A stretch of 34,410 bases of DNA from Candidatus Woesearchaeota archaeon (GTDB lineage: Archaea; Nanobdellota; Nanobdellia; Woesearchaeales; JAGWAF01). The translations under genes were made by a program, and so were the position numbers. The notes beneath the pieces are model-generated. The model was not told where the DNA came from and ran no database searches. It saw only the letters and a program-made list of their open reading frames with translations. The DNA is taken from assembly GCA_018302085.1 (NCBI GenBank), contig JAGWAF010000026.1:1-34410 (forward strand), written 5' to 3'. Shown piece after piece: positions 11,864 to 27,724 of the stretch; position 1 is the stretch's first letter, and every line of letters starts with the position of its first letter.

Positions 11864-11895
11864 CCGTGCCATGTTTTTTTGAGTGAGTGAAGAAC

Positions 11896-12918
11896 ATGAG
11901 TGAAGAAAATGACATTGGTACACTTTTGCAGCGTCTCCAAGACGAATCTAATTTTGAAGCGCCAGAGTTTACTCCAGAGGCTCAGCGAGAAAAACGTGCG
12001 GCTGCAAAAAAATTTGTAAAAGAAGCAAGTGATCACCCAGATGGCGGTATCTACCTTGACGCTGTTCAAGCAATTGACGGAATTATCCGTATAGCAATAG
12101 ATAATCCTCTTGCAGAAGGTCTCGTAGAAGCAACGTCGCAGGCGGGACGTAGCATAATTAGACTGGCTCAAAATAGCTGCCGATTAAGTGAACAACTCGA
12201 TGCTGAGCGTAAACAAGCTGATTATTTACGAAAACAAATCGAAGCTCAAGGTAAACAACTTGAAGCCGTTAAGTACGCAGCCGAACGAGATCGTTTAATG
12301 AAAGGATTCTATAATCAGAACAGTTCGGAAGTTAAAAGTTTGGAGCTCATTGCTGAGGCTGTTAAATTAGAGCAACCTGTTGCTCTTGCATATGCGGACA
12401 TTGATGATTTTGGTGAGTTTAACGATACCTATGGTCACGATCATGGAGACGTTGCCTTACGGCATGTTGCAAAAGTTGCCGCGGCATGTTTTGGAGAAGG
12501 ACCTGAATTGCTCCGCTTTCGCTCTCAGGGTGAGGAACTTACTTTTCTTGTACGAGGTTTGACACAAGACAAACTTGCTCAACGTATGGACGCATTCAGA
12601 ATAAGACTTGCAGAGAGTCAAATCGGTGTTGATGAGGCAGATGATAACAACTGGATGGAACCTTATGGGAGGGACATTCATAACGTACTTGTTGAACCTT
12701 ACAAATATGCTAACGAGATCAATATCACCATAGGAGTGTGCGATAATGCTGCTATTGGTATGCAAGTGGTTGGTATGCAAGTGGAATCAATGCCAGGCTT
12801 CCTCGCCAAACTCAGACGACTTTCTGACGCTAATATGCGTATTGCAAAAGCGGCAGGAAAAAATCGTGTTTACTTAGGTAACGATGCTCAGCCTTATTCT
12901 TCCCAACCTAATCTTTAA
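11896..12918 (+). CDS. GGDEF-domain protein, putative diguanylate cyclase-type nucleotide cyclase
   Basis: Residues 1-150 are helical and end in a coiled coil rich in E, K and Q (about 95-135), as in the signalling helices before GGDEF domains. The GGDEF domain (about 155-330) keeps the metal-binding aspartate region YADIDDF (D168), the base-contact NDTYGHDHGD stretch and the hairpin signature in the form QGEEL (211-215) where GGDEF is usual. The two metal and substrate carboxylates are therefore kept, but the first glycine is glutamine. It may make c-di-GMP or a related dinucleotide; activity is uncertain. No EAL or HD-GYP partner is in the window. The start is the ATG at 11896; an in-frame GTG at 11887 is also possible. 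It is cotranscribed with the degenerate GGDEF gene 36 bp on. GGDEF proteins are uncommon in archaea. Confidence 0.82.
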   Translation: MSEENDIGTLLQRLQDESNFEAPEFTPEAQREKRAAAKKFVKEASDHPDGGIYLDAVQAIDGIIRIAIDNPLAEGLVEATSQAGRSIIRLAQNSCRLSEQLDAERKQADYLRKQIEAQGKQLEAVKYAAERDRLMKGFYNQNSSEVKSLELIAEAVKLEQPVALAYADIDDFGEFNDTYGHDHGDVALRHVAKVAAACFGEGPELLRFRSQGEELTFLVRGLTQDKLAQRMDAFRIRLAESQIGVDEADDNNWMEPYGRDIHNVLVEPYKYANEINITIGVCDNAAIGMQVVGMQVESMPGFLAKLRRLSDANMRIAKAAGKNRVYLGNDAQPYSSQPNL

Positions 12919-15796: not shown

Positions 15797-16271
15797 AAAA
15801 GCAAGGTATTCTTTTTGCCGTATGGCAGATATTCCCGAACTGAAAAGTCTTGAGAAAGCGTTCCAGTACAATAAGGCTATCCCACTCATGGGTTTTAAGG
15901 GGCAGCTCGATCAACTGATTACTATTATCACCTCACTCTTCGAGAAAATTGGGATTGGAAATGATATGCCAAGCTACACTGCATTTCTCAAATTGCAAGA
16001 GATCAGAGAGGAATTGATGGTGTACCATGACGTGCATAAAATTTCCTTGCTCTCTTTAACTCATAAAGATCCAAAGCTTGTTGAATTTTGGGATGTGTTT
16101 CAGCATATCGATCAGCACATGAGGGGCATCATTGGAGGTATTGAGAAAGAAAGTGTTAATCTTGCGATGACGTATGGAAAAGAAAACTATCATCACGCTC
16201 AAAAAACGTTAAAATACTGTGCAAACCAACTCAATAGAGTTAAACAACAACTCCAGGTTCTTTACTCATGA
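15789..16271 (+). CDS. Small helical protein, coupled to the metallopeptidase
   Basis: Not recognised. The 160-residue protein is predicted helical throughout (LKSLEKAFQYNK, QLDQLITIITSLFEKIG, CANQLNRVKQQLQVLY) with no membrane helix or metal motif, apart from several histidines in HIDQHMRG and YHHAQ. The ATG at 15789 overlaps the peptidase stop; a second in-frame ATG at 15822 would remove the first 11 residues. Its own stop overlaps the next start as ATGA. The three-gene unit (peptidase, this protein, DUF4346 protein) suggests a shared role I cannot name. Confidence 0.6.
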   Translation: MLKKARYSFCRMADIPELKSLEKAFQYNKAIPLMGFKGQLDQLITIITSLFEKIGIGNDMPSYTAFLKLQEIREELMVYHDVHKISLLSLTHKDPKLVEFWDVFQHIDQHMRGIIGGIEKESVNLAMTYGKENYHHAQKTLKYCANQLNRVKQQLQVLYS

Positions 16272-17455
16272 AATGGCCACTCATCTTTAATGATTTGATC
16301 CTGCTTGGAAACCCCAACTCTCAAGTTTGTGTTCTAACGTTATGGACGAAAAAGGAAGAAGTTGCCAAATATCTGAATCCGCTAAAATATGCGCTCATTG
16401 GACAGCTGTACTCGAAAGATGAAGGGGTGAGTGCTTTACTCCGTAACTGTTTGGCCAACAAAAATATCCGCCATCTTATTGTAACGGGAAATGATGTGAG
16501 CGGGTCCGGAAAAGCTCTTGTTGATTTTTTCAAGAAGGGAATTGATAACAGAAACAAAATTGTCGATCATGATGTTGTTATCGATAAAGAAATTCCTAAA
16601 AAATCCTTGGAGCTACTTAGAAAAAATGTACAATGCCATGACTATCGAACACTGAGGGAATATGCAAAACTGAACAGTGTCATTGACCATTTTCAAAAAC
16701 TTTCCTCGTATGGAAAACCAGAACTATTTCCATCAGCCCAATTAAAAACCCCAGAAATCTATCCTCATGAACAGGTTGGATTTTGTATTCACGAAAAAAA
16801 TATTCATCATGCATGGGCAAGGGTCTTACAGTTTCTCCTTCGCTTTGGAGTTTTGGAAAAACAACGAGCATTGTTCGATCTTATGATTGTCGTTGCCGAA
16901 GAAAATCCTGAGTGGCAATCCATATATCCTTTTTCTGAAAAAATGTTGGAATCATACTTTGTTAACATAAAAAATAAGATCACATTTATCCTTAAAAAAG
17001 TAAAGAAAAATAGATGTGACACTTTCGATCAATTGCCCAGACAAATGCTTATTTTAAGAGCTTTACAAAAAAATATTGCTCAGGAACTCAAGCTACAACT
17101 TGGAAACTTGTGTCTCTTTATCCAAAAAGCAATTCTGCAGAAAAAAGACGTAGGAAAAACAAGAAATGTTCTGAGTTCAACACAACTTCCATTTAAACGA
17201 ATTGGGGATTTACGCGGAAATATTGCAATTTGTCTCGACAGGGGACATATCAGGGTTACCCACCTAGATCCTGCAGGGAAAAGACTTGAAGTCTTCTATG
17301 GCATGACTGCTTTTGAATTGTATAAAAAAATCATTCTTGAAGAGAGGATTTCAGAACTTGGGCATGCTGCTTATTTGGGGGCAGAACTTACAAAGGCTGA
17401 AATCGCTTTGAAGAAAGGATTGAAATATGTGCAGGATGAGCAGGTTGATTGGTAA
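16268..17455 (+). CDS. MtrA-like / thymidylate-synthase-like protein with C-terminal DUF4346
   Basis: A 395-residue three-part protein. Residues 1-95 (CVLTLWTKKEEV, LIVTGNDVSGSGKALVDFF) resemble the cobalamin-binding fold of tetrahydromethanopterin S-methyltransferase subunit A. The middle (about 175-215, HEKNIHHAWARVLQFLLRFGVLE) resembles the start of archaeal thymidylate synthases. The end, with GNIAICLDRGHIRVTHL and then LGHAAYLGAELTKAE and YVQDE, matches the DUF4346 pattern. Archaeal proteins of this make-up are annotated as thymidylate synthase-like or MtrA-like. A role in dTMP synthesis is possible, but the catalytic cysteine motif of ThyA is not evident to me. The start overlaps the previous stop (ATGA). 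Confidence 0.75.
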   Translation: MKWPLIFNDLILLGNPNSQVCVLTLWTKKEEVAKYLNPLKYALIGQLYSKDEGVSALLRNCLANKNIRHLIVTGNDVSGSGKALVDFFKKGIDNRNKIVDHDVVIDKEIPKKSLELLRKNVQCHDYRTLREYAKLNSVIDHFQKLSSYGKPELFPSAQLKTPEIYPHEQVGFCIHEKNIHHAWARVLQFLLRFGVLEKQRALFDLMIVVAEENPEWQSIYPFSEKMLESYFVNIKNKITFILKKVKKNRCDTFDQLPRQMLILRALQKNIAQELKLQLGNLCLFIQKAILQKKDVGKTRNVLSSTQLPFKRIGDLRGNIAICLDRGHIRVTHLDPAGKRLEVFYGMTAFELYKKIILEERISELGHAAYLGAELTKAEIALKKGLKYVQDEQVDW

Positions 17456-20134: not shown

Positions 20135-20230
20135 TATAGCAAATGACTTTAATAATCGTAGCTTTGGCAAAGTCATTTGCTTATTAGGAAAAGACGTGAA
20201 ATCTACGAAAATTAATGTCTTTTCCTATAG
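20135..20230 (+). repeat. Double-hairpin kissing-loop element, member A copy 1
   Basis: This 96-bp element is identical base for base to the reverse complement of 25498-25593. Hairpin 1 is AGCAAATGACTTT (20138-20150) with AAAGTCATTTGCT (20169-20181), loop 18 nt. Hairpin 2 is TAGGAAAAGAC (20185-20195) with GTCTTTTCCTA (20217-20227), loop 21 nt. Loops hold TCGTAG and CTACGA, which can pair. The first 32 nt match the reverse complement of the last 32 at 25 positions, so the halves are inverted homologues. It lies between the pseudouridine synthase gene and the gene at 20374. Confidence 0.9.
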
Positions 20231-21701: not shown

Positions 21702-21952
21702 ATGTCTGGCAGTGGATTGCCACGATACTCATTCTTGTTGGTAGTATCCCTCTTGGTTATTTGCTTGGAAAGATTGCAAAAGAAGAGTTAAAAGAGTTAA
21801 AAAAAATTTTGAACGTAGTTTGCGTACTTTTCTTTATCGGCTTCTTTGCAAGTCTTGTCTGGCTCTTTTTACATTTAACTTTTTACGCCCTCTACCTCAC
21901 GTTCACGTTTATTTTTCTTCTCGGATTACTGCGCGGAAGCTCATATAGATAA
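21689..21952 (+). CDS. Small membrane protein overlapping the dph2 fragment
   Basis: Function not recognised. The 87-residue protein (ATG at 21689) overlaps the end of the dph2 fragment by 13 bp in another frame. It has a hydrophobic segment near 6-26 (VWQWIATILILVGSIPLGYLL), a basic/acidic loop KIAKEELKELKK and a long hydrophobic second half (about 41-82, two helices). The motif G-x-LLGKIAKEELKE is a pattern I associate with small DPANN membrane proteins. The stop codon lies inside the kissing-loop element at 21943-22039. Confidence 0.55.
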   Translation: MDLLNVWQWIATILILVGSIPLGYLLGKIAKEELKELKKILNVVCVLFFIGFFASLVWLFLHLTFYALYLTFTFIFLLGLLRGSSYR

Positions 21953-22039
21953 CTGCGCAACTTATAGCCTATTTGGCGCAGTTATCTAATAAGTAAACTG
22001 CGTGTACAAGTAGGCTATATCCTACGCAGTTTACTATAT
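21943..22039. repeat. Double-hairpin kissing-loop element, member B
   Basis: This 97-bp element starts ATATAG and ends CTATAT. Hairpin 1 is TAGATAACTGCGC (21946-21958) with GCGCAGTTATCTA (21976-21988), loop 17 nt. Hairpin 2 is AGTAAACTGCGT (21992-22003) with ACGCAGTTTACT (22024-22035), loop 20 nt. The loops carry TATAGCCTA (21963-21971) and TAGGCTATA (22011-22019), a 9-nt perfect complement. The first 33 nt match the reverse complement of the last 33 at 26 positions. The central linker CTAATAAG is shared with the element at 25498-25593. It lies between convergent gene ends and contains a stop codon. Confidence 0.85.
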
Positions 22040-22063: not shown

Positions 22064-22639
22064 TTATATAATATAAGAAAGCAACACTCCTATAACGCCT
22101 GCAAACACTGGAACGTACAAATTATCTTCTAAATGGTCCATAAAAAGTTCGATGAATGAAGCTGCCAATGCCATAATTAAGATAGACAGGATACTATTTA
22201 GAAAAAATAAACCTACTACGATACACACTACAAAATTTGCTACAATGCCTTGCATTGTTTTTTCCTTCCAAACCTTTTTTGTTCCCCACCTTTTTCCTAC
22301 AATCGCTGCAGCAGGGTCACCAAAATAACTCATGCCCAACGCAGCCAGCGCAATTTCTAAAGGGTAAAAATATAGGACGAGCAAAATACCTAATGTTGCA
22401 TACGTGATGGCAATCATCCTCTTTTGTTCTTTCTCCTTCTGCAGATCAGAAAAAATCGGAATTCTGACATTTAATTCAATTCTCAAAAAATCAATTATCA
22501 AAAACAAAAGCAATGCGATAAAGGCAAGCCAGAGCACAGTTGCGTGATCGTATGCATTTTCAACAACAAAAATGAGGTACAGGGTGAGTGCACCTAGGCC
22601 CACGTGAGCTATTTTTCTTAAAAAATAAGTGTCTACCAT
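22064..22639 (-). CDS. SEC59/dolichol kinase-like CTP-dependent lipid kinase
   Basis: A 191-residue membrane protein with about six helices. It opens with RKIAHVGLGALTLY (about 8-21), as in SEC59/DGK1-type polyprenol kinases. It carries the family motif SYFGDPAAAIVGKRWGTKKV with the following KEKTMQG (about 104-131). These enzymes phosphorylate a polyprenol or diacylglycerol with CTP. Being last in the archaeal lipid operon, it may recycle geranylgeraniol or dolichol for lipid or glycan-carrier synthesis (inference). It overlaps the carS gene by 7 bp. A cytidylyltransferase role is the main alternative. Confidence 0.8.
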   Translation of the reverse strand: MVDTYFLRKIAHVGLGALTLYLIFVVENAYDHATVLWLAFIALLLFLIIDFLRIELNVRIPIFSDLQKEKEQKRMIAITYATLGILLVLYFYPLEIALAALGMSYFGDPAAAIVGKRWGTKKVWKEKTMQGIVANFVVCIVVGLFFLNSILSILIMALAASFIELFMDHLEDNLYVPVFAGVIGVLLSYII

Positions 22640-23175
22640 TTTTCTCCTCTGATCTTGGTGTAGTATGCGATGTGATTAATGATGACGTGAAGTATAAAAT
22701 AAATGAGCACTCCATAAATGCTTTCAAGCCAACCAACGAAATAAATCGGAGCCGCACATGCTATTGCTCCTATCGTGTAATCAATTTGATCAAACGGAAT
22801 CCACGATTTTCCAGAGGCAATGTTTACTCTCCTCTTCAAAAAGCTTTTGATAAGGTCTCCAAAAACAGCACCGAAGCCAAGCAAAAAGCCAAGGAAAATG
22901 GATGTTTCGGAATAGTTTACAAGACTGTAGGATTGGAAAAATGGGAATATATACAATTTCTGCTGTATAAAAAAAATAATCACTCCGAATAAAGAACCGA
23001 GAAGAAGGCCACGCCAGGTTTTATGCTTTCCAAAAATAGGTTTTCCATTCCAGGTTTTGTTGGCATCGATAGGAACTGCCCAACTTTTTAATAGGTTTTT
23101 ACACATCACAGGCGCCATATTGGCAAATCCTGCAGGAAGAAGGAAATAAAAAATCGAAAGTATTTCTTGGATCAT
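22633..23175 (-). CDS. carS: CDP-archaeol synthase
   Basis: Transfers CMP from CTP to unsaturated archaetidic acid, giving CDP-archaeol for all archaeal polar lipids. The 180-residue membrane protein shows the CarS pattern in order: PAGFANMAPV (15-24), GKHKTWRGLLLGSLFG (about 49-64), FGAVFGDLIKSFLKRR (about 101-116) and GKSWIPFDQIDYTIGA (about 122-137). Hydrophobic helices lie between these. It overlaps the upstream archaetidylserine synthase gene by 4 bp (ATGA) and the downstream SEC59-like gene by 7 bp, so it is inside one operon. Confidence 0.95.
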   Translation of the reverse strand: MIQEILSIFYFLLPAGFANMAPVMCKNLLKSWAVPIDANKTWNGKPIFGKHKTWRGLLLGSLFGVIIFFIQQKLYIFPFFQSYSLVNYSETSIFLGFLLGFGAVFGDLIKSFLKRRVNIASGKSWIPFDQIDYTIGAIACAAPIYFVGWLESIYGVLIYFILHVIINHIAYYTKIRGEKW

Positions 23176-23834
23176 TGTATCTTCTTAATTTTAAACCTCG
23201 CAATCATTAGTAATGAAAGTGGCAAAAACACCCAGGGCCAAAAAGTAGGGGGAAGACCAGCAAAAAAAAGAATCGGGGTGAGGTAGCCGTTGATGGTGAT
23301 GGGCATTCCATAAAAATAAATGTGAGTTTGTTGGATATTAAATCGTGCAAGACGAATGATACCGCACCACACAAAAATCAGGTAGATAATCATTGCAACT
23401 GTTGAAGCATTCTGCATGAATGCAAACACGGCGGGCGCTACACCAAAAGAAACGATATCTGCAAGAGAGTCTAGCTCTTTGCCTAACTCGCTTGTCTTAT
23501 GTGTCCAACGTGCAATTTTACCATCCAAAGCATCGCAACATATGGCAAATATCAGCATAGTCGCAGCCAAATAAAAATGTTGGCTAATGGAGAAGAAAAT
23601 GCAGAGGATTCCGAAACCAGCGTTCAGTAAAGTGAAGATGTCGGCAGTTTTAATTTTTTTTGTACGAAATCTTTCTATTAGTTCATGACGTTTCTCTTTC
23701 AGTCGCAAAACCTTTTTTTTGACATTAATCCTTATATTTTGTCTTGTATTTTTCATTCTCGCCTTGGCAAGAGAAATCTTTTCCTTAATCTGATCTCTTT
23801 TCCTTTCAATCTTTTCTTTTGTTTCGGGTTTCAT
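23172..23834 (-). CDS. pssA: Archaetidylserine synthase (CDP-alcohol phosphatidyltransferase)
   Basis: Joins L-serine to CDP-archaeol. The 220-residue protein starts with about 55 basic, helical residues, then the CDP-alcohol phosphatidyltransferase signature D-G-x2-A-R-x8-G-x3-D-x3-D in DALDGKIARW followed by ELGKELDSLAD. The continuation IVSFGVAPAVFAF is typical of serine-specific (PssA subclass II) members. Several membrane helices follow. The start ATG at 23834 overlaps the decarboxylase stop (ATGA), so translation is coupled. It lies between the genes for its next step (decarboxylase) and its substrate supplier (carS). Confidence 0.92.
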   Translation of the reverse strand: MKPETKEKIERKRDQIKEKISLAKARMKNTRQNIRINVKKKVLRLKEKRHELIERFRTKKIKTADIFTLLNAGFGILCIFFSISQHFYLAATMLIFAICCDALDGKIARWTHKTSELGKELDSLADIVSFGVAPAVFAFMQNASTVAMIIYLIFVWCGIIRLARFNIQQTHIYFYGMPITINGYLTPILFFAGLPPTFWPWVFLPLSLLMIARFKIKKIQ

Positions 23835-24511
23835 AAATACTCTGCGAGAATTGTTGTTCCCGCTTTTACGTGTTGGCCTTCCTTTATATTTAATCTCATT
23901 TTTGGAATTATTAACGTCACTTGCGAACCAAATGTTATCTTTCCTATTCTCTCTCCTTTCTTTACACTTTCGTTTACTTTTTTCCAAGGAATAATTCTTC
24001 TTGCAAGAAATCCTGCAATTTGAATGACCTTGATTTTTCCTAAGTCCTTGTTTTCTATTATGTACTCAACCTTTTCATTCTCTAATGCTTCTAGATTTTT
24101 CGCGTTTTTAAAACCTCCTTTTTCTCGAGTTATCTTTACGATTTTTCCGTCAACAGGTGAGCGGTTGATGTGAACATCAAAAACGGTCATAAAAATAGAA
24201 ATAAGATAACGAGCATCAGGAGTGTCTTTTGTCATGGTTGAAATCTTTCCCCAAACTCCTTTATCGATTTTCATTTTTCCATCTTTTATCATCTCTTTAT
24301 TCACTTTTTCTCTTTCATCCTTTATTCCTTTTCCACTTTTTGTTAGCTCTTTTTTTTCTTTCAAATCAATAATTGCAATCACCCAACCATCAGCAGGAGA
24401 AACCATCACTTTTCCTTCAGGAATTTTTCTTTTCGGATCTCGATGAAACTGCAAGAGGAAAAGCAGTGCAAGAAGAACTATTATTATAAAAACTACCAAA
24501 AAAATGTTCAT
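23831..24511 (-). CDS. asd: Archaetidylserine decarboxylase (PSD family proenzyme)
   Basis: Pyruvoyl enzyme that turns archaetidylserine into archaetidylethanolamine. The 226-residue protein has an N-terminal membrane anchor (1-22, MNIFLVVFIIIVLLALL). SPADGWVIAI and the later FDVHINRSPVDGKI are conserved in the PSD family, and self-cleavage should occur at the glycine-serine bond in FGSQVTL near the C-terminus. An unusually charged insertion (about 55-85, rich in K, E and D) separates the two halves. The ATG at 24511 is chosen because a TATA box (24533-24542) lies 26 nt upstream; a GTG at 24550 would be upstream of the box. First gene of the lipid operon. Confidence 0.92.
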   Translation of the reverse strand: MNIFLVVFIIIVLLALLFLLQFHRDPKRKIPEGKVMVSPADGWVIAIIDLKEKKELTKSGKGIKDEREKVNKEMIKDGKMKIDKGVWGKISTMTKDTPDARYLISIFMTVFDVHINRSPVDGKIVKITREKGGFKNAKNLEALENEKVEYIIENKDLGKIKVIQIAGFLARRIIPWKKVNESVKKGERIGKITFGSQVTLIIPKMRLNIKEGQHVKAGTTILAEYL

Positions 24512-24532
24512 GCTCTTATCGGGAAAAAAGAG

Positions 24533-24542
24533 GTATATAATC
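24533..24542 (-). promoter_or_regulatory. TATA box of the lipid operon
   Basis: The minus strand reads GATTATATAC, centred 26 nt before the ATG at 24511. No further promoter is evident inside the operon. Confidence 0.6.
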
Positions 24543-24593
24543 CTTTTCACAAAAAATGTTTATTGCTTCAGACTGAGTGTTGGTTGTTTCTTC

Positions 24594-25466
24594 TCATTTA
24601 TTCTTTCTGTATACTGAATGTCCGACGTGCTCTAGTGTTGACAGTCCCATTAGTGAGATACCTTCTGTAGCACCTAAAAAAAGATAGCTTCCCACGTGCA
24701 TGCAGTTTTCTGTCAATGCCGTGAGAACTGTACGCCTGTCATCATTCGACATATAAATAAGAACATTTCTCAGAAAAACAATGTCTGGATTTTCAAACTC
24801 ATTTGGAAATTTGACATGTTTATTCGCGACGTGTCTTAAATTGAGTTTTTCAAAAGTAACTCCATCTTTTATGGAAGGATGCACCACTCTATACCATTTT
24901 CCATCCCTATTCTCTACTCTTGTATAGCACTCAAGCAATTTTATATATCCTAAACCACAATCCTCTGAAATGAAAGATGAAAGGAGGTACTCCCCCTTTC
25001 TCGCCTGTGCCAATGCCTCCTTTCTAATGTCTGTTGCAAGAATTTTAACAGGTTTTCCCACCTTTGCGGCTACCATTGCAATGCTATACGCCTCCCTCCC
25101 ATCCGAACAGCAGAGATCCAAAATAACTGAAGTTCCAGAAATGGTTGGAAGTAACCCTTCTAAATATCTGAACTGTTCGGGTTCACGGAAAAAGTAAGTT
25201 TTACCATTAAGCAAGGTATTGGCAACATCTTCTAACAATTGAGAGCCCGGCCTTAGCGCTTTGATAAAGTCCCTCCAACTTGAAAATTTGGAAGCAAGTC
25301 CTTCTAATCTACGACCAATATTCGGACGTACGGTTTTAGGCGGACCAGAAAGATACGACTCCTCGATACGCCATATTATCGTGCTAAGCTCTTCTTTGGT
25401 GGGTTCTCCAATGGACTCTCCACTGGGTTCTTTACCAGGTTCTCTGCCATGTGTTCTTATCTGCAT
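24594..25466 (-). CDS. cheR: CheR-type SAM-dependent methyltransferase
   Basis: CheR methylates glutamates of chemoreceptors. The 290-residue protein has a CheR N-terminal helical region, the NGKTYFFREPEQF segment (about 87-99) before the SAM domain, the SAM loop LDLCCSDGREAYSIAM (about 116-131), the acidic strand end ILATDIRKEAL, and PDIVFLRNVLIYMSNDDRR (about 227-245), all typical of the family. The first 25 residues are a G/E/P-rich extension. No receptor, CheB, CheA or flagellar gene is in the window, so the target may be elsewhere or non-chemotactic. A TATA box (25487-25497) sets the start. Confidence 0.9.
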   Translation of the reverse strand: MQIRTHGREPGKEPSGESIGEPTKEELSTIIWRIEESYLSGPPKTVRPNIGRRLEGLASKFSSWRDFIKALRPGSQLLEDVANTLLNGKTYFFREPEQFRYLEGLLPTISGTSVILDLCCSDGREAYSIAMVAAKVGKPVKILATDIRKEALAQARKGEYLLSSFISEDCGLGYIKLLECYTRVENRDGKWYRVVHPSIKDGVTFEKLNLRHVANKHVKFPNEFENPDIVFLRNVLIYMSNDDRRTVLTALTENCMHVGSYLFLGATEGISLMGLSTLEHVGHSVYRKNK

Positions 25467-25497: not shown

Positions 25498-25593
25498 CTA
25501 TAGGAAAAGACATTAATTTTCGTAGATTTCACGTCTTTTCCTAATAAGCAAATGACTTTGCCAAAGCTACGATTATTAAAGTCATTTGCTATA
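25498..25593 (-). repeat. Double-hairpin kissing-loop element, member A copy 2
   Basis: This 96-bp copy is the exact reverse complement of 20135-20230. It fills the space between the divergent TATA boxes of cheR (abutting it) and the radical SAM gene (8 bp away). Whatever the element does, it must affect or tolerate both promoters. Confidence 0.9.
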
Positions 25594-27175: not shown

Positions 27176-27724
27176 ATGGTCTATGAAAACCCTCTCATGA
27201 GCTGGTTTAGGGAGGAAGCAGCAATCTTTACTAATCCGCTTGCGAGACGGCTGCATAAACTAGGTGTAAAACCAAATCTTATTACAACACTCTCTTTTCT
27301 TTCAGGACTCGCTGCAGTGTATTTCCTATTTTACAATCACGCTATCTTTGTTTTTTTCGGTGTTCTCCATCTTTTATTCGATGGCTTGGATGGTTCCCTT
27401 GCTCGTGTTTCTCAGACTTCAAGTCTTTTTGGAAAATGGTACGACTATGCTACTGATCGAACAATTACCTTTTTACTCCTGGCAAAATGTGCCTTGGTCT
27501 ATGAGACTGTTTTCTGGATTCTTCTGGCTTATTTTTGCCATCACCTCATCTATGTGCTTTGTAAAGGAGAAATTATCGTTTTTTATGGAAGAACCATCCT
27601 TCTTGTTTCCTTGATTCTCGGCTACGATTGGTTTGGATTGTATGCAGTCGGGGTCATTGGGATGGTAGGTATCAGTGCGCAGGTGTTGAGTCTAATACAC
27701 CCTTTTTTAAAAGCAAAGATTTAA
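27176..27724 (+). CDS. CDP-alcohol phosphatidyltransferase family protein
   Basis: A 182-residue membrane enzyme with the signature D-G-x2-A-R-x8-G-x3-D-x3-D in FDGLDGSLARV followed by FGKWYDYATD (about 69-95). Membrane helices lie on both sides, at about 38-66 and 98-178. The opening NPLARRLHKLGVKPNLIT is usual for the family. It differs from the serine-type enzyme of the lipid operon and would add another head group, such as inositol phosphate or glycerol phosphate, to CDP-archaeol; the specificity is not visible. It is followed 25 bp on by two small membrane protein genes. Confidence 0.88.
   Translation: MVYENPLMSWFREEAAIFTNPLARRLHKLGVKPNLITTLSFLSGLAAVYFLFYNHAIFVFFGVLHLLFDGLDGSLARVSQTSSLFGKWYDYATDRTITFLLLAKCALVYETVFWILLAYFCHHLIYVLCKGEIIVFYGRTILLVSLILGYDWFGLYAVGVIGMVGISAQVLSLIHPFLKAKI

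Follow-up and report, generated by a model that had tools for sequence, protein, structure and literature searches.

A 96-bp double-hairpin sequence repeated in a Woesearchaeota genome as a probable IS630-type MITE with a hairpin at each end

The RUP element of Streptococcus pneumoniae is an AT-rich, non-coding element of about 107 bp with TA targets, and its terminal repeats resemble those of IS630-Spn1, the proposed mover in trans (PMC2229807, PMC3049150). Pairing in RUP, and likewise in BOX, is between the two terminal repeats (PMC3049150). The Correia/NEMIS elements of Neisseria are small MITEs with TA at both ends that fall into classes of about 107 and 155 bp and insert near or in genes (PMC2229807, PMC10969869). 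Duplication of TA marks IS630/Tc1-mariner elements, among them ISY100, which has a DDE transposase and for which terminal repeats of about 24 bp are sufficient in cis (PMC2170065). REP/BIME sequences consist of inverted hairpin units in pairs, for which movement in trans by RAYT has been proposed (PMC2817692). Short, mobile-looking and hairpin-forming double-hairpin elements are also described, in the available portions of the reports, from fungal and algal mitochondria (e.g. PMC4478555, PMC5910586).

The double-hairpin element described here, family A, occurs in a stretch of 34,410 nucleotides (the window), which is one of 91 contigs of the 1.29 Mb genome of a Candidatus Woesearchaeota archaeon. 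The window encodes archaeal genes such as the one for CDP-archaeol synthase, which belongs to a phospholipid gene cluster (22633-24550, minus strand) together with CDP-alcohol phosphatidyltransferase and phosphatidylserine decarboxylase; a second CDP-alcohol phosphatidyltransferase is found at 27176-27724. An MtrA-like protein with a PterinBD-DUF4346 domain (16268-17455, plus strand) is also encoded, and this small DPANN-type archaeal genome has both a GGDEF (diguanylate cyclase) domain protein (11887-12918, plus strand) and a CheR-type methyltransferase (24594-25466, minus strand) in the window.

The preliminary description had claimed that two 96-bp sequences, 5.3 kb apart and in opposite orientation, are identical within unlike flanks. 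This was confirmed at 96/96 positions (Table 1), and the stem lengths given for the two hairpins were right. The longest exact inverted repeat in ten shuffled windows reached 15-20 nt, and an adjacent double hairpin was absent from 20 shuffles of the window. Folding of the 96-bp sequence gave -20.8 kcal/mol as DNA (z -7.6) and -32.4 as RNA (z -7.1), and the two hairpins are formed by both strands (z about -7). The element proper, TAGC...CCTA, is 91 bp long, has no coding capacity and is flanked by a duplicated TA on each side; the consensus of its 26-bp terminal inverted repeats is TATAGSAAATMACYTTAATWWTCGKA. The complementary loops TCGTAG and CTACGA that had been pointed out earlier are present, because the same transposase-site motif is carried at both ends as terminal inverted repeats. 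Of 52 parsed relatives, however, only 25 have the 5-nt motif in identical form at the two ends, and a conserved loop-loop contact was therefore rejected.

Table 1. Double-hairpin elements of the window and their parts.
Feature	Position	Strand	Remark
Family A copy 1	20135..20230	+	as delimited in the preliminary description
Family A copy 1, parts	TA duplicate 20135-20136; element 20137-20227; TA duplicate 20228-20229; host G 20230	+	
Left terminal repeat TATAGCAAATGACTTTAATAATCGTA	20135..20160	+	putative IS630 transposase site
Hairpin 1, 13 bp	20138..20181	+	outer arm of left terminal repeat paired with added inner arm
Hairpin 2, 11 bp	20185..20227	+	outer arm of right terminal repeat paired with its own inner arm
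Right terminal repeat, inward reading TATAGGAAAAGACATTAATTTTCGTA	20204..20229	-	
Family A copy 2, inverted	25498..25593	-	between divergent genes
Family A copy 2, parts	element 25501-25591; TA duplicates 25499-25500 and 25592-25593	-	
Family H double-hairpin MITE	21944..22038 (95 bp with both TA); element 21946-22036	-	

Family A is dispersed in the host and widespread in its order. The host genome contains four full copies (99-100% identical) and three partial ones; besides the two in the window, one full copy lies on contig C66 and one on contig C20, each differing from the window copies by one base. Similar DNA was found in 13 of 99 relatives, several of them with many copies. The search of the whole genome and its relatives that the preliminary description had called for thus revealed further copies in both, which excludes an assembly duplication as the origin of the repeat. 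With a covariance model built from 18 copies and the loose cut-off of E<=0.1, family A was detected in 120 out of 353 genomes from the order. At E<=0.001, a phylum sample of 279 genomes yielded 49 carriers, 45 of which belong to the order (the window's genome included) and four elsewhere in the class. Genome G197 alone harbours about 25 copies of 93 bp that are almost identical. Across the species genome collection, 66 stretches match a broader core pattern, all labelled Woesearchaeota or Pacearchaeota, and none has the exact 73-nt pattern of the window version. Neither the element nor a relative of the transposase was found among IMG/VR viral contigs. Most copies are intergenic, in unrelated contexts, with no recurrent neighbour and no recurrent transposase gene beside them.

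Insertions into genes define the target. In three disrupted genes, two split by family A and one by the family H treated below, the inferred empty sites retain exactly TA. The copy on C20 splits a YhcG-type nuclease gene, the left part of which ends at profile position 62 and the right part of which starts at 64; the one residue lacking in between is provided by CTA, which consists of TA and the neighbouring base. The copy on C66 splits a PIN-domain gene, whose parts lie two residues apart in profile coordinates, the spacing that follows if TA is kept. The longer word TATAG was rejected as the target, as it would frameshift both of these genes. Among 81 insertions, counted as copies with intact tips and distinct flanks, 75 have the inferred target Y-TA-R, which applies to 22% of all TA sites (P about 1e-41). 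IS630 itself prefers CTAG.

The ends point to a mobiliser. Three IS630 elements, in genomes G119, G316 and G057, share the 26-bp ends of family A with up to 25 of 26 positions identical. The G119 element (1105 bp, flanked by T-TA and TA-G within a tyrosine recombinase gene) carries TTAATAATCGGA / TTGATTTTCGGA at both ends, its ends being TATAGTAAGGGAGGTTAATAATCGGA and TATAGTAAGGGAGTTTGATTTTCGGA. Its closest relative, at 58%, is the G316 element, whose end TATAGTAAATAACTTTAATTTTCGTA is identical at 25/26 positions to the right end of many MITEs (TATAGGAAATAACTTTAATTTTCGTA); the G057 element has a similar end. The left terminal repeat of the window copy, TATAGCAAATGACTTTAATAATCGTA, matches the ends in G316 and G057 at 22/26 positions. 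In more distant IS630s (36-39% identical), the inner motif of the ends has drifted, and the outer arms differ between MITE and IS. Family A is thus short, non-coding, bounded by terminal inverted repeats and multicopy at unrelated sites, and has ends in common with autonomous elements, which in this case come from genomes other than the window's. Judging from these matching ends, it is very probably moved by a separate transposase of the IS630/Tc1-mariner type. Of the two kinds of mover proposed in the preliminary description, the DDE enzyme is therefore supported, as a member of the IS630 family.

The matching IS630 clade was found in only three genomes, two of which have no element detectable by the covariance model, and no fully intact copy was seen: the G119 transposase contains an extra stop in frame, and a contig end interrupts the G316 copy. 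The two have in common a conserved A8C slippery run where two overlapping frames join, a feature that fits programmed -1 frameshifting. In this order, a split into two frames is frequent among IS630 transposases (L183, L219). No DDE_3, IS630 or Y1 transposase was detectable in the host assembly, and DDE_3 is not enriched in carriers (3/23 vs 6/76, P 0.43); such absences of IS630 weigh little because MAG assemblies lose repeated ISs. The IS630 of carrier G078 was rejected as a mobiliser, its ends being different, and a scan of six high-copy genomes for an autonomous copy with unpaired ends found no such copy, just MITEs that were truncated or mutated and hairpin elements of unrelated kinds.

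The 96-bp sequence is accordingly filed with the IS630-group MITEs because of its ends and its target. It is in all likelihood a non-autonomous DNA transposon of the IS630/Tc1-mariner kind that would be moved in trans by an IS630 transposase. The mobile family without a transposase of its own that had been suspected from the window is borne out by dispersed near-identical copies with unlike flanks, by disrupted genes and by DDE transposons that share its ends. In the proposed mechanism, an IS630 transposase acting in trans would bind the conserved inner motif TTAATWWTCGKA of each end, pair the ends and cut at the TA-flanked tips, after which the 91-bp element would be inserted at a new TA. The outer 11-13 nt of each end recur as an inverted copy immediately inward, so that each end can fold into a hairpin.

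These inner arms set the MITEs apart from the autonomous elements. An inner arm pairing at 9/11 positions or better is present at 131 of 138 MITE ends and at none of 12 IS630 ends, where inverted matches to the outer 11-mer reach at most 6-8 of 11 positions; the IS630 ends therefore form no hairpins. In 69 distinct sequences, the arms are retained in nearly all copies. The arms pair in 97% of cells; two-sided changes number 45, where shuffles give 14, a count that related sequences can inflate, and the signal collapses once the pairing is slid. The arm versions AAATGAC/GTCATTT, AAAGGAC/GTCCTTT, AAATCAC/GTGATTT and GGAGGAA/TTCCTCC are plain compensations across lineages. A single duplex joining both terminal repeats, as in RUP, was not found; there are two hairpins, which covary within each end. 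The total length is bimodal, with one class of 88-98 nt that peaks at 93-94 and another of 106-117 nt that peaks at 115-116. The tally was read by hand from covariance-search tables; each combination of genome and length counts once, and a few nested copies (127-188 nt) are excluded. In the longer class, each hairpin is larger by about 10-11 nt, and there are gaps in hairpin size at 45-49 nt for hairpin 1 and at 46-50 for hairpin 2. The step of about 21 bp, equal to two B-DNA turns, suggests a need for the tips to remain in helical phase; the alternative is shared descent of two subfamilies.

Between the two family A copies lies a third double-hairpin element that the preliminary description had overlooked. 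This family H has nine copies in the host genome (97-100%), one of which splits a presumably YbaK-like gene, a name taken from our own reading of the two translated flanks with no profile hit behind it; the frame is restored if TA is kept. Compared end for end, family H matches the IS630 of G252 at 23/32 and 26/32 positions, and its ends show no match to those of the G119 IS630. Its copies have TA, the Y-TA-R preference is not clear, and length and spacer resemble those of family A. The two-hairpin layout on two sets of ends reflects either parallel origin or the rewriting of one scaffold.

Several composite or damaged copies were observed. L007 (reverse complement, G000:C47) and L005 (G000:C40) apparently present family C in a loop of family B in a loop of family A, a join that rests on an 86-bp overlap of contig ends. 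L019 and L020 (G000:C45) are two copies, at separate sites 5 kb from each other, of one damaged composite in which family B holds a partly deleted family D; this suggests that the composite moved or was copied after the deletion. In L050 (G012:C37:21415-21602), loop 2 of a copy of family A contains a different double-hairpin element (TGTC...GACA). Unfilled copies used for comparison show that it was inserted without TA duplication, and another transposon type may thus make the same shape. Several copies in G044 (L163-L165) and one in G012 (L162) are truncated near one point of loop 1 (around CGGAAC), possibly by one-ended events.

Hairpins at both ends and the presence of Y1 transposases in many relatives would also suit an IS200/IS605- or RAYT-type element, REP/BIME- or PATE-like, moved single-stranded by a hairpin-recognising Y1 (HUH) transposase. 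This origin, the other mover proposed in the preliminary description, is most improbable. The empty sites require that TA be kept, and TATAG would bring a frameshift in both genes; the left flanks have no fixed target word, only Y before TA, and the target is duplicated. The ends are terminal inverted repeats that match DDE transposons, neither the host nor G069 has a Y1 transposase, and Y1 loci elsewhere have unrelated ends and hairpins. The strong RNA fold, the covarying stems and the intergenic position of most copies could instead indicate a structured RNA, a regulator or processing site kept for its RNA function and spread by recombination. It is very unlikely that family A is such an element, as it interrupts genes, lies in unrelated contexts with no recurrent neighbour and has precise TA duplications and transposon ends, while a difference of two DNA turns between its size classes speaks for double-stranded DNA; the window also has no Rfam match.

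With family A taken as an IS630-type MITE, the role of its hairpins is a separate question. The fold-back geometry is probably maintained, because the arms change in concert across lineages and the length stays at about 94 or 115 bp; the cause may be palindrome-correcting copying, or else selection acting on the transposition complex of so short an element, and a link from hairpin to function can only be inferred. The double hairpin might be a working device in its own right, with a scaffold shared across IS630 lineages, though this is doubtful. Transposons below 100 bp, shorter than easily bent DNA, would then need a fold-back end, as a cruciform or a second transposase contact, together with a fixed helical phase between the tips. 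At least two Woesearchaeota IS630 lineages would have spawned MITEs on one two-hairpin scaffold of about 43+3-4+42 bp with a TAT or TATT spacer, the ends being rewritten to suit each transposase. The hairpins may also be functionless, a view that leaves the IS630 MITE identity untouched and competes only with the device. The inner arms would stem from snap-back copying of a cut end at the birth of the MITE, and covariation from repeated template-switch correction, a process known for quasi-palindromes. This would explain why the arms change together, and autonomous ISs manage without them. Against it stand the recurrence of the layout on the end sets of A and H with near-equal geometry, the arms kept in nearly all copies of the 69 distinct sequences, and the bimodal length. 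Functionless hairpins are thus possible but not favoured.

Family A shares with RUP its small, non-coding nature, its TA targets and its IS630-like terminal repeats, and RUP, the fold aside, is its best match in working mode (PMC2229807). The folds differ: the repeats of RUP and BOX pair with each other (PMC3049150), whereas each repeat of family A pairs with its own inner arm. With Correia/NEMIS, it shares the MITE size, TA ends, two size classes and insertion near and in genes. Those elements belong to another host domain, their size step is about 50 bp instead of 21, and the accessible text gives terminal repeats of 24-26 bp and describes no inner inverted arms, which family A has. ISY100 and other IS630/Tc1-mariner elements have terminal repeats and TA duplication in common with family A but are autonomous, and the IS630s found in Woesearchaeota lack terminal hairpins. 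For the double-hairpin elements of mitochondria, compared from partial descriptions, the likeness is one of shape only, and to our knowledge no transposase has been assigned to them. RAYT, the supposed mover of REP/BIME, is a Y1 enzyme, and the target and end logic of those elements fails for family A.

What is known here is thus an IS630 MITE like RUP; new is that each end has its own hairpin, absent from the autonomous ISs, and this architecture makes family A a new variant among IS630-group MITEs. A text search of the literature on MITEs and transposases in DPANN archaea brought up no description of this family. The present data document a very common mobile family in uncultured Woesearchaeota together with its likely transposase. 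They also offer a natural test of how a transposase joins the ends of an element that is too short to bend easily.
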